This document shows positions 20,079 to 63,578 of a DNA stretch of 64,000 nt, piece by piece. The notes beneath the pieces are model-generated. The model was not told the origin of the DNA. It saw only the letters and a program-made list of their open reading frames with translations, and did no database searches. The stretch is from IMG/VR virus record IMGVR_UViG_3300023171_000008, positions 38,558 through 102,557 of that record; one strand, given 5' to 3'. Each line of letters begins with the position of its first letter. Position 1 is the first letter of the stretch. This DNA comes from a virus. A program made the translations under genes and the position numbers.

Positions 20079-22328
20079 TTAATAGCTTTTCCTATAGTTT
20101 CTTTCAAAGAATTTATCATTACTTAACAACTCAATTTGTTTACCTTCATTTTCTTTAGCTGATTCTGTTCGTTTAAATCTATCTTCTCTTAATATAAATA
20201 ACATACCTGCAGCAGATATTCTATCAAAGTTACCATCACTATTCCATTTAATAGCTTCTTCAATATGTGCAATACCTCTCATAGTATGTAAATTTAATTT
20301 ACCAGTTTCCTCTTCTTCACCATATATAGGTGTATTCATCCAATCTGCGTGAAGTTTTCTACCCCACTTATTAACTTCTTTATTAGCCAATGTACCTTTA
20401 CTATTATTTCCATAACCAACACCTTTAGTTAATTCCATATCACGAAGTATTTGAGGAGTATCACATAATCTATATAAAGCATTTTTCTTATCAAAATAAC
20501 TAAATAAACCTTTTAAGTTTTTCTCATAATTAGCAACACCATTATAAAATTCTAATACACGCAATGCTATTTCATATGCTTCTTCAGCTAATCTAGGTCT
20601 ACCAGTATATTCACAAACTATTCTGTCTGTAAATGTATCTAATCCAATTATACTAAATAATGAAGTACCTGCGTCTGCATCAATAGGGTCAATTCCAAAT
20701 ATATATCTACCACTAGCTATTGTATCATTAGCATTCTTTTTAGGCATTTCATATATCTCTAAAGCACCTTCTCTATTAGCAGTATCTTTATCATAGCTAC
20801 GCAAAGGATATTTATCCCCATTTAACTTCCATATAACTTCACCATCATTACTTCTTATCAATTCACCTACATAATGTTCAGCTAAGAATGATTCTCTTCT
20901 AGGTAATATAGATTCTAAATAATCTTTAAGATCTGCTACAGGAAATACTGTTCCTTCAGTACGCATAATAGCTTCTTGAGGAGTAATGGGTTCTTCAGCT
21001 TTTTTCTGAGTAATTGCAGATGGATCTGTTGAATTATATTTTACTAAATATCTATCATTTAATATTTGTATTAATGCTTTAATTACATCTGGTTCACCAT
21101 TTTCTAAATCAAAACATTCATTACGATTCATATATGCTCCCCAAAAGAATCCACATAAAGTATCTCCAGGAGTATTTTTATCAAATACATTTGGAATACC
21201 ATATATGTTATAACCTTCAGGATAATAAAATAGTTTTTCAGAGCCTTCAAATGAACCACCTTCAACACCACCTGTACCCATTGCTATCATGAAACCAAAT
21301 GTAGTATCACCATCTTCAACAGCTTTTCTATTTACATTCCAAGCTTTTTCAAGATTAGGAAATAAACCATCTTCTTCATAGTGAATTAAAGGTCCCCTAA
21401 TACCCCTAGCTTTATCAGGATTATCTTTTAATGATATACCACTTACAGAAGATAATAATCCTTTACGTGAGCCGTATTCATCTTTAAATCCTAATTGTAA
21501 CTCCATTGTAGTACCAGATCTATCAGTAAGTCTCATACGAGGTAATGGTGTATGTTCAGCTATCCAGTCTAAGTTATCTAATATTTTACCCCATATACCT
21601 TTATCTCCAGTAAGAAATGTTTTATCAGATGCCAAATGAAAGTTAGGGTTACCTGATCCAGGAAGTACATACATATTTCTAGGACTCCATGATGCGGCTT
21701 TAAAACTTGCACCAATACCACGAGTCTTAAGCATTTTACCATGACTACCTTTACGTTTAGCTTGTTCTACGTAATGATGAAATAAATAATCTCCTAACCA
21801 AGGTTTACCAAATTTTCTTATACGTTCACCTTTAGATTTAGATCCATTACCTTGTACACCTTCTTTTTCAACTAACCATATAGGACTATAGTTCCAATAG
21901 AAATATAATTCTCCAGGAATCCATTCACCATCAGAAGGTCTAACTAAACCATGTTTCCATTTATATAATTCATCTTTCCAGAATTGAGCATATTCAGATT
22001 TAGGATTAGGATTAGGTGTTAAATGTGTATATACTCCATACTTATCAAAGTATAATCCTTTCTCTCTAAAGAAATCCATATCTTCTAATATGTGAGGATT
22101 GGTAATATCTACTTCTATTCTACCGTCATTATAATCTGTAGATTTAGGTCTATCTTTACTATAACCTCTAATATGTTCAGGAGCAATTAATCTTTTAATA
22201 AATTCAACTGAATTAATAAATTCTAATAAATCAGCATATACTTCTCGTGGTAAACTTTCTTTTAATTCATCTGTAATAGGTGTTTGATAATTGTTAAATT
22301 TATATATTTCATTTATTGATTCATCCAT
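20079..22328 (-). CDS. terL: Terminase large subunit
   Basis: 749 aa. The ATPase half has a Walker A-like K-T-R-G-I-G-A-S (residues about 198-206) and a Walker B-like hydrophobic strand ending LIHYEEDG (residues about 310-318). The C-terminal nuclease half begins with FGIDPIDADAG (about residue 540), supplying the first RNase H-fold Asp. It powers DNA packaging and cuts the concatemer. Length matches crAss-like TerL. No small terminase subunit is recognised nearby. It overlaps the GroEL-like gene by 16 bases. Confidence 0.9.
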   Translation of the reverse strand: MDESINEIYKFNNYQTPITDELKESLPREVYADLLEFINSVEFIKRLIAPEHIRGYSKDRPKSTDYNDGRIEVDITNPHILEDMDFFREKGLYFDKYGVYTHLTPNPNPKSEYAQFWKDELYKWKHGLVRPSDGEWIPGELYFYWNYSPIWLVEKEGVQGNGSKSKGERIRKFGKPWLGDYLFHHYVEQAKRKGSHGKMLKTRGIGASFKAASWSPRNMYVLPGSGNPNFHLASDKTFLTGDKGIWGKILDNLDWIAEHTPLPRMRLTDRSGTTMELQLGFKDEYGSRKGLLSSVSGISLKDNPDKARGIRGPLIHYEEDGLFPNLEKAWNVNRKAVEDGDTTFGFMIAMGTGGVEGGSFEGSEKLFYYPEGYNIYGIPNVFDKNTPGDTLCGFFWGAYMNRNECFDLENGEPDVIKALIQILNDRYLVKYNSTDPSAITQKKAEEPITPQEAIMRTEGTVFPVADLKDYLESILPRRESFLAEHYVGELIRSNDGEVIWKLNGDKYPLRSYDKDTANREGALEIYEMPKKNANDTIASGRYIFGIDPIDADAGTSLFSIIGLDTFTDRIVCEYTGRPRLAEEAYEIALRVLEFYNGVANYEKNLKGLFSYFDKKNALYRLCDTPQILRDMELTKGVGYGNNSKGTLANKEVNKWGRKLHADWMNTPIYGEEEETGKLNLHTMRGIAHIEEAIKWNSDGNFDRISAAGMLFILREDRFKRTESAKENEGKQIELLSNDKFFERNYRKSY

Positions 22329-23818
22329 GCTGTATAATTTAATACTATAGCTTCAGTACTAAGTATTGTTTTAGCTACAGATACTGCATTTTCCAATGCA
22401 CATCTAATTGATTTAAGTGGATCTATTATATTTAAATCAAACATATTTAATTCAATATCTAAATCACAACCATTTTCTTTAATTGTTTCATAAGGTTTAG
22501 TTAATGAAATGGCAATACACCCTTCTATACTATTTAAATCTAAATAAGTTTTTTCTTCTTTTGGATGTAATTTATCATAAACTTTAAATACATTTATAAT
22601 GATATATAATAATGCTTTTCCACCACCTTCTACTATACCCTCTTCTAATGCACAAGCTACTGCTAATACTGCATCATCATATCTATCCTTACGTTCTTTC
22701 ATTTCAATCTCTGAACGTCCACCTACTTTAATAATAGATACTTTACCTGTAAGATTAGATATACGTTGTTCTAATAATTCCTTATCATAGTTTTCTAACT
22801 CTTTAGAGTATTCTTTCATATCATTAATCTTATTATCTAAATTAATAGATTCATCTTTTAATAATATACTTGTGTCTCTAGTAATTTTAGCAGATTTAAG
22901 TCTACCTAATATATTAGATGAATACTTTTTAGTTAAATCAATTATAAGACTTCCTCCTGTAAATAAACTTATATCTTGAAGTAAATCCTGTCTATGTTTA
23001 GAAAAGCCAGGAGATTTGATTACACAGCATTTTAGAGCTTGTGATAATACATTAGTTTCAACTAATCTTAACAGACTTTCATTTACATGTTCTGTAATAA
23101 TAAGTAGTGATTCTTCTTTACCATGTATATCTTTAATTATATTTTCAAAAGCATTTAAGCTATCAAGCTTACCATCTATAATTATTACATAAGGTTTATC
23201 TAAATGTACTTCACCTTTCTTTGGATCTGTAATAAAGTTTTTACTAAAATATGTAGTATTAAGTGACATACCGTCTACATATTCTAAAGTATCTTCATTA
23301 TTATTACTTTCTTCAACTTTAATTATACTAGAAAAATCATAAGCTTGTTGGATAAAATCACCAACTTGTATATCATTATTAGCAGATATAGTTGCAACAT
23401 ATTTAATATCTTCATGTTTTAACTGTCGTGAATTAGCTTTTAATTCTTCAATGACTTTAGGTATAATTTCATCAAATGCTTTATTAATATCTTTAGTATT
23501 AAAATTTTTAAGATTATTTATAAATGCTGTAGCTAATACTGTTGTAGTAGTTGTAGCATCACCAACTTCTTTTAATTGTTTATTAGCTGCTTGTTTAACT
23601 AACTCTGCACCTATATCTTCTACTGGATCTTTAAATCTAATACTATTAGCTACAGATACACCGTCTTTAGTAACTTTATATTTATTAGGATTATCTTTAT
23701 CAGGTATAATAACTGTAGTACCATTAGGACCTAATGTAGATGCTACTGCTTTATTAAGTTTATTAATACCATTTATTAACTTATCTTTTCCTTCTTGATT
23801 AAAATATACTTCTTCCAT
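22313..23818 (-). CDS. groEL: Phage GroEL-like chaperonin
   Basis: 501 aa with equatorial-domain signatures: LNKAVASTLGPNGTTVII at residues 21-38 and GDATTTTTVLA at 86-96, where Asp87 aligns with the ATP-hydrolysis Asp of GroEL (usual motif GDGTT). The C-terminal equatorial segment (AVACALEEGIVEGGGKALL) is clear. It is shorter than the bacterial protein (about 545 aa) and lacks a GGM tail. The middle apical region is divergent. It probably folds virion proteins together with the co-chaperonin encoded at 24915-25265. Confidence 0.9.
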   Translation of the reverse strand: MEEVYFNQEGKDKLINGINKLNKAVASTLGPNGTTVIIPDKDNPNKYKVTKDGVSVANSIRFKDPVEDIGAELVKQAANKQLKEVGDATTTTTVLATAFINNLKNFNTKDINKAFDEIIPKVIEELKANSRQLKHEDIKYVATISANNDIQVGDFIQQAYDFSSIIKVEESNNNEDTLEYVDGMSLNTTYFSKNFITDPKKGEVHLDKPYVIIIDGKLDSLNAFENIIKDIHGKEESLLIITEHVNESLLRLVETNVLSQALKCCVIKSPGFSKHRQDLLQDISLFTGGSLIIDLTKKYSSNILGRLKSAKITRDTSILLKDESINLDNKINDMKEYSKELENYDKELLEQRISNLTGKVSIIKVGGRSEIEMKERKDRYDDAVLAVACALEEGIVEGGGKALLYIIINVFKVYDKLHPKEEKTYLDLNSIEGCIAISLTKPYETIKENGCDLDIELNMFDLNIIDPLKSIRCALENAVSVAKTILSTEAIVLNYTAWMNQ

Positions 23819-57633: not shown

Positions 57634-57706
57634 AGAATATCTGCCTAGATATATAGAAATATATATCTGTAATTGGACAAAAACGGTGAATAAAAATTCA
57701 TAATTA

Positions 57707-57738
57707 TTAGGAAATGTCATAAATTTTTCATATATTTG
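57707..57738 (+). promoter_or_regulatory. Intron-internal promoter for the LAGLIDADG gene
   Basis: TTAG at 57707-57710, 20 bases, TATATTTG at 57731-57738. The -7 box matches TAnnTTTG exactly and the -33 box has one mismatch. The endonuclease start lies 19 bases downstream, so it can be expressed without the host ligase transcript. Confidence 0.65.
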
Positions 57739-57757
57739 TATATATAAAATATAATTT

Positions 57758-58471
57758 ATGATTGACAATTATTTTGATAAAATTGATTCTGATATTAAAG
57801 CTTATTTATTAGGCTTTTTTATTGCAGATGGTTGTATTAGCAAAAATAGTAGATGTACTAATAGTTATCGTTTTTCAATTAATATTTCTGATATAGATAG
57901 AGAAATTTTAGAAATTTATAAAAGTGAATTAATGACAAATAATAAAATTGTTACTTCACATTATAAAAAAGGAGCTATAAATAGAAAACCAGTATCATGT
58001 TTAAGATGGACTTCTGGTTATATGTTTGAAATGTTTAAAGTAAAATATAATATTAATCCTAATAAAACAAAGGATTTTAACTTTACTTTTAATTTTGAAT
58101 TAATAGATGAAGAATATTATTTTTCTTTTATAAGAGGATTTTTTGATGGAGATGGTCATATATCATATACTGACACTAATCAATTTACTTTCGCATTTTA
58201 TGCAACTTCTAAACCTTTTTTAGAACAAATTGGTAAAATATTTGAAAAAGAGTTTGATATAGAATATTTAATTAAGGGAACTATTAAAACAAATATAGAA
58301 TTATTTTGTTTAAGATTTAATTGTAACCAGAAAAGAAAATATTTTATAAAAAAATTATATGATAAATTTTACAGTAATTCTAAATTTTCTTTATTAAGAA
58401 AAAAATTAAAATTTGAAAAATATTTAAATACCGTGCTAAATTCTAATGGTAAAAAATTAGAATCAGTGTAA
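57758..58471 (+). CDS. LAGLIDADG homing endonuclease
   Basis: 237 aa with two LAGLIDADG helices: L-L-G-F-F-I-A-D-G-C (about residues 18-27) and F-I-R-G-F-F-D-G-D-G (about residues 123-132), the latter Asp residues being the metal-binding acids. Two motifs mean a monomeric, double-domain enzyme. Should cut the intron-less ligase gene and promote intron homing. The gene is very AT-rich, and such double-motif enzymes are rarer in phages than GIY-YIG or HNH types. Confidence 0.92.
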   Translation: MIDNYFDKIDSDIKAYLLGFFIADGCISKNSRCTNSYRFSINISDIDREILEIYKSELMTNNKIVTSHYKKGAINRKPVSCLRWTSGYMFEMFKVKYNINPNKTKDFNFTFNFELIDEEYYFSFIRGFFDGDGHISYTDTNQFTFAFYATSKPFLEQIGKIFEKEFDIEYLIKGTIKTNIELFCLRFNCNQKRKYFIKKLYDKFYSNSKFSLLRKKLKFEKYLNTVLNSNGKKLESV

Positions 58472-58653
58472 CGCATAGGAGTTGATCCATAATTTAAGAG
58501 TCTTAGTGACTCTTTTTTTATGACTAAAATATTCCCACGAGTGTCCGACATCTGACTGTCTGCGAGATAAAAGATGAAAATATATGCTGAACTATAATGA
58601 ATGAATATAATTATAGAATCTAGGGATAAAAAGCCTTAGAGATAACAAAATTG

Positions 58654-61002: not shown

Positions 61003-62121
61003 ATGAGTAAAGAAAAAATAGTAACAACAATAAACAATGAGGAATTACCTATTACACAATGTAGAAGATTTGAAACTCTATATTATAAAATAGGTGATAT
61101 AAATGTTGAAAATTCAGGAGAATGTTATTTTGTAAGTAATAAATATTATAGATTTGAAACAGGTCAAATAGTATGGGATTATGAAAAACAACAATATGTT
61201 TTAAAAAACGATAATTTAATTAATGGTATTGTTAAACTTAATGAAAGCGATATTCAATTAGGTTACTTTACTAAAAGTGAAGATAATATACCTACTATAA
61301 CTCCTAATGGTACATATATGTCTTTAAATGAAGAAGTGTTTAAAGATAGTAAACTTTATCGTGAAAGATTATCTAATGGTCAATATTATCATATTGATTT
61401 ATTATCAGCTAAGGAATTTAATAGACTTAAAATTACAGATCAAGGATATAAACAGTCGTTACCTTATGACTCAAAGGGAATATTAGGACAATATCTTGAG
61501 AAATATAATAAGTTAGAAGTTGAACCTGGATATTATATTAATAATTATTCTAAGTTAATTGATAACTTATCATTTGGTCTTGAATTTGAAACATCTTCAG
61601 GTTTTATACCTAATAGATTATTAAATAAAGTAGGATTAATTCCACTTAGAGATGGTAGTATAACAGGTATAGAATACGTTACTGTACCTATGCAAGGTAG
61701 TAAAGGATTACAGACAGTTATTAATGCAGTAGATCTTCTTAAAAAGAGAACTGAGTATAATGATTCATGTAGTTTACATTTGCATATTGGTAATGTGCCT
61801 AGAACTAAAGAATTTATATTAGCATTTTTTAAAGTTACATGTGCATTACAAGATGAAATATTTAATATGTTTCCAATCTATAAGAAGTATAATTTTGGTG
61901 TTAAGAATAAAAACTATTCTAGACCTTATCCTACTTATGAGTTGTTATCTCAAATGGATCCTATAATTACTAGAAATAATTTAGATAGTAATTTTGATGT
62001 ATTATTTAAATACTTATCTATGGATTTAATGAACTTAAATTCTATTGGGAATGATTTAGATAATATCGAAGGACATCCTGCAGATTTACAAGGTAATCAG
62101 AAATGGAATATTAAAACACGT
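61003..62121 (+). CDS. Amidoligase (GS-fold), exon 1
   Basis: 373 codons ending K-T-R. The catalytic core carries G-L-E-F-E-T (Glu194, Glu196), G-I-E-Y-V-T (about Glu224) and C-S-L-H-L-H-I-G (His259, His261), the signatures of the putative amidoligase family with a glutamine-synthetase-like fold. Unspliced, TGA follows at 62122-62124. It begins one base after the class II amidotransferase. The enzyme should attach an amine to a carboxylate, with ammonia or amino acids supplied by its neighbours. Confidence 0.85.
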
Positions 62122-62197
62122 TGAGTAAAAATAGCGTAGCTATAAAGTAATTTATAGTAAAAAATATTGGGTGAATTCAAAGAAAGTCTTAATAAAA

Positions 62198-62229
62198 TTT
62201 GTTTTTGTTGTAAAAATTTATTATATTTG
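62198..62229 (+). promoter_or_regulatory. Intron-internal promoter for the HNH gene
   Basis: TTTG at 62198-62201, exactly 20 bases, TATATTTG at 62222-62229: a full match to the Bacteroidota consensus in both boxes. The HNH start is 17 bases downstream. Confidence 0.8.
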
Positions 62230-62246
62230 TATATAATAATATTTAT

Positions 62247-62867
62247 ATGAAACAAGAAAAAGAATACTTAGAAGCAAATAAAAAACAATCAGTTAATTTA
62301 GTAGATTATCCTTATAAAAAAGGAGATAAAGTAGGTAATTTTATAGTAAATTCTGATAATTATGTTTATCATCATAAAAGATATCAAGTTGAATTAACTT
62401 GTGAATGTGGTAAAATAGTTTACAGAAGATTAAATAATATACTAAAATTAAAAAATATTTGGTGTTCAAAATGTAAAGGATATAATTTATATCCAGAAAG
62501 AAGAAAGTCTAGTGCATGGTTTACTAACGGTATTCACATACTTTGGTATAACGAAATAACTAGCAACTTACATAGAGGAAACAGAATAATAGATTGTAAA
62601 ATCAATATAGAAGATCTAAAAACTTTATATGACGATCAAAAAGGAATTTGTCCATATACAGGTATTTATTTAAATGTTTTAGATTTATTAAAAAAAGAAT
62701 CTAATGCTTCTATTGATAGAACAGATTCTTCAAAAGGTTATACTATGGATAATATTAAATGGGTTTATAAGCCTTTAAATATTATGAAAAATAGATATTC
62801 ATTAGAGGAATTTTTATTTGTTTGTAAAAAAGTTACAAATTTTACAGATAACTTTGAGCCAAGCTAA
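62247..62867 (+). CDS. HNH homing endonuclease
   Basis: 206 aa. The N-terminal C-E-C-G...C-S-K-C is a zinc ribbon for DNA binding. The HNH core reads C-P-Y-T-G-I-Y-L then A-S-I-D-R-T-D-S-S-K-G-Y-T-M-D-N-I-K-W-V and a final N-x-M-K-N, the layout of intron-encoded HNH enzymes of phages. Should target the intron-less amidoligase gene. Placed similarly within its intron as the LAGLIDADG gene in the other. Confidence 0.92.
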   Translation: MKQEKEYLEANKKQSVNLVDYPYKKGDKVGNFIVNSDNYVYHHKRYQVELTCECGKIVYRRLNNILKLKNIWCSKCKGYNLYPERRKSSAWFTNGIHILWYNEITSNLHRGNRIIDCKINIEDLKTLYDDQKGICPYTGIYLNVLDLLKKESNASIDRTDSSKGYTMDNIKWVYKPLNIMKNRYSLEEFLFVCKKVTNFTDNFEPS

Positions 62868-63026
62868 CTAGGGATAGTTAGAAGGTGCAACGACTAGTAC
62901 ATGGAGTCTAGAACAGACAGTAAAGTACCACGAGCGCCCAACATCCTTGCGAAGGATGATGACATAGTCTGAACTATATAGAAATATATAGAAGATAGGA
63001 TAAAGAGCCTATCGATAACAAAATTG

Positions 63027-63578
63027 TATTATCATAATAACTTAATTCCGTTAATCTTTTGTAATAAAGCAACTATTGAATTCAGAGTACATACTTCTAC
63101 ATTTGATGTTAATAAGATTATTCCGTTTATATTTCTTAATTCATTTTTAATTAACTATACTATTCACAATCAAGAAGAAATATTAGCTAATCCTAAATTC
63201 TTAATTAAAAAAACTTTACAACATGTTATTGGTCATTGTACTAATGTAAATGATAACATTAAAGATCTAGGCTTATTAAGAGATTGTTTAAATATGTATG
63301 TTAACGAAAGAACTGTTTTTACTAGAAGTCAAAATGCTAATGGTAAGATAATGGGTGAAGAACATTTAATACCCTCATGTAGTTCTTACATTAACTGGAA
63401 TACTAAAGATCTTAAACCTAAAGCTTATGGTTTAGACGCTGATTTACAAGCTTATATTCAGAGAACAAAAGCTCAAATGAATTATGATCCCACAGTTAAT
63501 GTTAAAAAACCTGCAATGAAAGCTAAACCACAACCTAAACAACAGAATATTAATGCTGAAGATCATTTACCATGGTAA
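63027..63578 (+). CDS. Amidoligase, exon 2
   Basis: 183 codons plus stop, beginning Y-Y-H-N-N-L-I-P and soon carrying A-T-I-E-F-R-V-H-T, the C-terminal Glu/Arg catalytic signature. The end is a Lys/Pro-rich linker followed by an acidic tip (AEDHLPW). The full protein is 556 aa. Its stop overlaps the start of the glycosylase-like gene. Confidence 0.85.
   Translation, partial: YYHNNLIPLIFCNKATIEFRVHTSTFDVNKIIPFIFLNSFLINYTIHNQEEILANPKFLIKKTLQHVIGHCTNVNDNIKDLGLLRDCLNMYVNERTVFTRSQNANGKIMGEEHLIPSCSSYINWNTKDLKPKAYGLDADLQAYIQRTKAQMNYDPTVNVKKPAMKAKPQPKQQNINAEDHLPW

Follow-up and report, generated by a model that had tools for sequence, protein, structure and literature searches.

A group I intron containing an HNH endonuclease reading frame in a crAss-like phage amidoligase gene

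Interrupted amidoligase gene

The amidoligase gene of the phage studied here occurs in two pieces, which raises the question of whether the DNA between them is a mobile intron that leaves the ligase intact or an insertion that has disrupted the gene. The window, i.e., the whole stretch of 64,000 nucleotides analysed, corresponds to bases 38558–102557 of a 102,557-base virus record. Gene content and tblastn matches placed the phage near Cellulophaga phage phi14:2 (Crassvirales, Steigviridae), in which the gene order is primase, gamma-glutamyl cyclotransferase, ATP-grasp-type ligase, COOH.NH2 ligase, aminotransferase-like protein, and amidoligase. Reading of the translations also revealed a GroEL-like chaperonin gene (22313–23818) among the phage structural genes. 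In the window, the N-terminal 373 residues of the amidoligase and the remainder of the protein are encoded separately, as follows.

61003–62121, + strand: amidoligase 5′ exon, 373 codons ending in ...KTR, last base U; Amidoligase_2, PHROG 2443; homologues continuous across the junction
62122–63026, + strand: group I intron, 905 nt, ending in G; RF00028 match, covariation, and an insert of the same length at the same junction in another phage (L071, see below)
63027–63578, + strand: amidoligase 3′ exon, from YYHNN... to the stop, including the EFRVH motif

The 5′ exon matched Pfam Amidoligase_2 (4.6e-05) and PHROG 2443 (1.5e-28), and the identity of the interrupted gene as a COOH-NH2 amidoligase was indicated by the Amidoligase_2 profile and the presence of HxH and ExR motifs. 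When the two exons were joined, an open frame for a 556-aa ligase was obtained, which aligned without gaps to uninterrupted homologues across ...NQKWNIKTR|YYHNN.... Ambiguity at the junction amounts to one base, 62122 and 63027 both being T; the frame allows two equivalent positions, and the limits were set at 62122–63026 because a 3′-terminal G exists only for that placement. An in-frame TGA (62122–62124) lies directly 3′ of the 5′ exon, such a stop being typical of these introns (PMC3073962). The preliminary description of this DNA had proposed a group I intron between the N-terminal part and the EFRVH-bearing C-terminal part of the ligase, with a U-G pair at the 5′ splice site, G at the 3′ end and restoration of the frame; the analysis bore this out (U62121-G62134, G63026) and confirmed the intron coordinates to the base.

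Insertion site in related phages

The joined protein was compared first with five relatives from IMG/VR and then with 78 further ligase loci, a search for intron-less alleles having been suggested beforehand. All ligase loci compared but one cross the insertion site in one piece, and the site is uninterrupted in 78 loci of other phages (some of them duplicates; approximately 64 distinct sequences). The exception, L071 (IMGVR_UViG_3300020045_007522), has a ligase 43% identical to that of the window, broken at exactly 373|374 by a 905-nt insert (L071:5120–6024). This insert shares 73% DNA identity with the window intron over 876 nt, likewise ends in G, and scored 49.9 bits against RF00028.

In 78/78 of the intron-free alleles listed, the site is between an Arg codon (AGA in 38, CGT in 26, AGG in 10, and others in 4) and a Tyr codon; in L037 and L049, for example, the sequence across the site is ACACGT|TAT. 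The residues beside the junction, R373 and Y374, were invariant in 55 aligned ligases; 6 of the 521 junctions in the ligase alignment were flanked by two invariant residues. The insertion region was also considered as an exceptionally conserved block and rejected as such, since its ten-residue neighbourhood ranked at 26% and only the two flanking residues were invariant. A search of PDB by sequence and profile gave no credible solved structure of a ligase relative. By comparison with glutamine-synthetase-like ligases, the Arg, which precedes the ExR motif by 18 residues, is presumably a candidate phosphate-binding residue. The earlier suggestion that conserved catalytic codons serve as homing sites thus held in part: invariant residues do flank the site, but the neighbourhood is not outstanding, different introns use different motifs (see below), and a catalytic role of the Arg and Tyr is only a candidate one. 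A preference for conserved codons is usual among phage introns (PMC3984707) and is not a peculiarity of the ligase cassette.

Ribozyme fold and covariation

When a short stretch was scanned, the 3′ core of the intron (62845–62991) matched RF00028 with 53.6 bits (E = 2.6e-13), just above the cut-off of 50. The score was 45.3 bits in a scan of the whole genome, and a scan of the whole window at the gathering score did not detect the intron, because the ORF splits the intron core. Features of group I introns were present, including the core helices P3–P8, P7 with the R/S sequences, and a U-G pair in a P1 formed with an internal guide. P7.1 and P7.2 paired and covaried in part, and the core showed Twort-type kinship; subgroup IA (IA2-like) is a candidate assignment. 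The helices written from the window sequence were as follows.

62118–62137, + strand: P1, exon ACGU (62118–62121) with guide GCGU (62134–62137), U62121-G62134 wobble
62130–62133, + strand: P10 5′ strand, pairing with 3′ exon 63027–63030; 4 bp in the window and 3 in L071
62140–62157, + strand: P2 hairpin, 7 bp; 2 compensatory changes
62167–62173, + strand: P3 5′ strand UUGGGUG, partner 62935–62941; 1 compensatory change
62177–62189, + strand: 5′ strands of P4 (62177–62182, partner 62852–62857) and P5 (62186–62189, partner 62846–62849)
62858–62886, + strand: P6 and P6a (62864–62881); 5 compensatory changes in P6a
62892–62969, + strand: P7 (GACUA 62892–62896 with UAGUC 62965–62969), P7.1 and P7.2 (62897–62928), and P8 (62942–62958); pairing, covariation, RF00028
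62974–63013, + strand: P9 (62974–62991) and P9.1 (62994–63013); pairing, covariation

Covariation was tested on an alignment of the window and L071 introns with the ORF loops removed, the 5′ half being represented by two sequences; the cr6_1 and cr111_1 introns were set aside as their cores aligned too poorly. Standard pairs were found in 97.3% of the cells in the window and L071 introns, compared with 29–46% in slid versions. Eighteen pairs were changed on both sides between the two introns, whereas shuffles gave a mean of 9.0 with 0/500 reaching 18, and sliding the partner by 1–3 columns left 0–2. These changes were located in P1, P2, P3, P4, P6a, P7.1, P7.2, P8, and P9.1; in P1, an A-U pair involving the exon was replaced by G-C in L071. 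The 3′ core alone had a folding z of −3.8. Since P1–P9.1 pair fully in the window and the independent L071 sequence keeps 97% of the cells paired, the fold is beyond chance, and the intron at 62122–63026 would be expected to be self-splicing.

HNH endonuclease ORF

The ribozyme is interrupted by a reading frame in which an HNH endonuclease had been recognized in the preliminary description, and profile matches agreed.

62247–62867, + strand: ORF of 206 aa within the P5 loop, for a predicted HNH homing endonuclease of endonuclease VII-like type; PHROG 3322, 1035

The ORF matched PHROG 3322 (1.8e-17) and PHROG 1035 (endonuclease VII; 7e-13), as well as PHROG 3118; searches of Pfam, NCBIfam and PDB gave no match. 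Its last 22 nt form strands of P5, P4, P6 and part of P6a, and overlap of an ORF with the ribozyme core has been described as 'core creep' (PMC3073962). L071 was the only close relative found in scans of IMG/VR, and none was found in a scan of GTDB genomes. Both carriers have an open ORF, and the two proteins are 61% identical, with dN 0.29 and dS about 1.0 (dN/dS about 0.3), indicating that the endonuclease is under protein-level constraint, i.e., purifying selection. Such an enzyme would be predicted to cut the intron-free allele.

Promoter-like element before the endonuclease ORF

A promoter-like element precedes the HNH ORF in the window.

62198–62229, + strand: TTTG-N20-TATATTTG, with TATATTTG at 62222–62229, 17 nt upstream of the HNH ORF start

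It fits the Bacteroidetes promoter consensus TTTG/TANNTTTG (PMC6847099). The element in the L071 intron is TTAGGAAATGT-N13-TATATTTG, and the same form is present in the intron in the COOH.NH2 ligase gene of the window. By count in the window the evidence is weak, the loose form occurring 7 times against 5.7 expected and the strict form 2 times against 0.27. Across IMG/VR, 27 of the 43 distinct matches to TTAGGAAWTGT-N13-TATATTTG were at most 45 nt upstream of an ORF of 60 or more aa, compared with 16% of random places, and the spacing to the ORF was mostly 15–25 nt. On the basis of this excess, the motif probably serves as a genuine promoter for genes in general, and the HNH ORF may be expressed from it independently. 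Specificity of TTAGGAAWTGT-N13-TATATTTG for intron endonucleases was considered and rejected, as endonucleases made up approximately one third of the 27 downstream ORFs. This motif or a looser form was observed at 57707–57738, 62198–62229, L071:5193, L071:10061, and L003:10700, upstream of LAGLIDADG, HNH, and GIY-YIG ORFs, and also before ordinary genes in many viral contigs. In L071, a GIY-YIG ORF (L071:10112–10411; homing endonuclease, PHROG 314) lies directly after a ribonucleotide reductase-like ORF and possibly belongs to another intron.

Other insertions in the ligase genes

As stated in the preliminary description, two ligase genes of the cassette are split by introns. The other intron of the window (57634–58653) interrupts the COOH.NH2 ligase gene after codon 137 and contains a LAGLIDADG ORF (57758–58471). 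In locus L049, the same junction is occupied by a 438-nt version that lacks a long ORF. L003 has a relative, 87% identical at the 3′ end, at a different junction near codon 111. In L091 and L092, the FG|LEFET motif of the amidoligase, a site other than that of the window intron, is interrupted by an insert with a LAGLIDADG-like ORF (L092:4555–5626, about 1070 nt). Since these insertions fall at differing junctions, the motif used varies from intron to intron in both ligase genes. The 3′ intron module also had matches near the ligase loci L097, L090, L099, L053, and L005.

It is conceivable, but in our estimate improbable, that endonuclease genes of unrelated families (HNH and LAGLIDADG), each carrying a host-type promoter (TTAGGAAWTGT-N13-TATATTTG or looser), insert preferentially in the ligase cassette of these phages. 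If so, cutting of a competitor would start at an early stage of infection and would not depend on the host gene being transcribed and spliced.

Mobility and alternative explanations

A tree of 66 distinct ligase sequences contained the 2 carriers, both from one collection. L071 was nested with the intron-free L052 and L056 (100/100) in a clade of 10 rows, and the window ligase was in a clade of 16 rows, the remaining 15 of which are intron-free. The same site is therefore occupied in distant hosts and only patchily among relatives, as in mobile introns. The codon before the intron is CGT in L071, whereas L052 and L056, the two intron-free loci closest to it, have AGA; exon co-conversion would give this pattern, as would selection for the splice-site U. 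The dS between the carriers was 1.02 for the intron ORF and 1.09 for the exon; with synonymous sites near saturation (pS 0.56), the time of transfer is unreadable from these values.

Taken together, it is very probable that a mobile group I intron with an HNH endonuclease interrupts the amidoligase gene of this crAss-like phage, and that it splices and homes as proposed. In the proposed course, the transcribed intron would fold into a P1–P10 ribozyme, and judging from this structure, a guanosine cofactor would be used to cut after U62121, and U62121 would be joined to U63027, restoring the 556-aa ligase. The HNH endonuclease of the P5 loop, whose expression is probably driven by a separate host-type promoter, would in mixed infection cut ligase alleles lacking the intron, close to the invariant Arg|Tyr codons, and repair of the cut allele would copy the intron in; kinship and patchy distribution suggest these last steps.

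The intron may instead splice while its endonuclease has lost the homing role, being degenerate or a maturase, so that inheritance was vertical with loss in most lineages. We regard this as unlikely: the rarity of carriers (2/66) and the nearly equal synonymous divergence of intron ORF and exon would fit, but by eye the ligase tree calls for about seven or more losses against two gains, and an ORF open in both carriers with a conserved protein also speaks against it. Each of two well-supported ligase clades contains a single carrier, so that two gains by homing are likelier than such losses. Disruption of the gene by a free endonuclease gene, leaving two separate ligase proteins, finds a possible start for a C-terminal ORF in the TTG at 63024; given the complete fold, covariation that includes the exon-guide pairing, the RF00028 match and the exact restoration of frame, it appears very improbable. 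That assembly joined unrelated DNA is scarcely credible even for a metagenomic record, as the orthologous insert is placed at the identical base in the independent L071 record. The window and L071 introns occupy one site in crAss-like phages that are distant from each other, with alleles lacking the intron in between, so that direct tests of splicing, of homing and of exon co-conversion could be made in phages of Bacteroidetes. Gene callers will divide these ligases in two.

Comparison with known systems

Endonuclease-bearing group I introns in crAss-like phages are already known, and the amidoligase intron is an ordinary selfish element of this type. Dense group I introns were reported in other genes of these phages (Yutin et al. 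2021, PMC7886860), where they were found via endonuclease domains; the phage order is the same, whereas the introns described here interrupt ligase genes, and their phage is close to Cellulophaga phi14:2, which adds the phi14:2-like branch and these genes to the intron-bearing crAss-like groups. The ribozyme resembles the orf142 introns of Staphylococcus phage Twort, with 83% identity across about 75 nt of the 3′ core, the same P7–P9.1 layout and a near-identical intron end. The Twort introns are in another gene, and the two compared are too short for an endonuclease ORF, whereas the amidoligase intron has an ORF in the P5 loop and resides in a Bacteroidetes-type phage. I-PfoP3I (PMC3428280) and I-BasI/I-HmuI are likewise HNH enzymes of phage group I introns; the present ORF differs in matching the endonuclease VII-like PHROGs 3322 and 1035. 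This is also different from the T4 td intron, in which I-TevI is a GIY-YIG enzyme encoded in the P6 loop, whereas here an HNH enzyme is encoded in the P5 loop with a 22-nt overlap with P5, P4, P6, and P6a.
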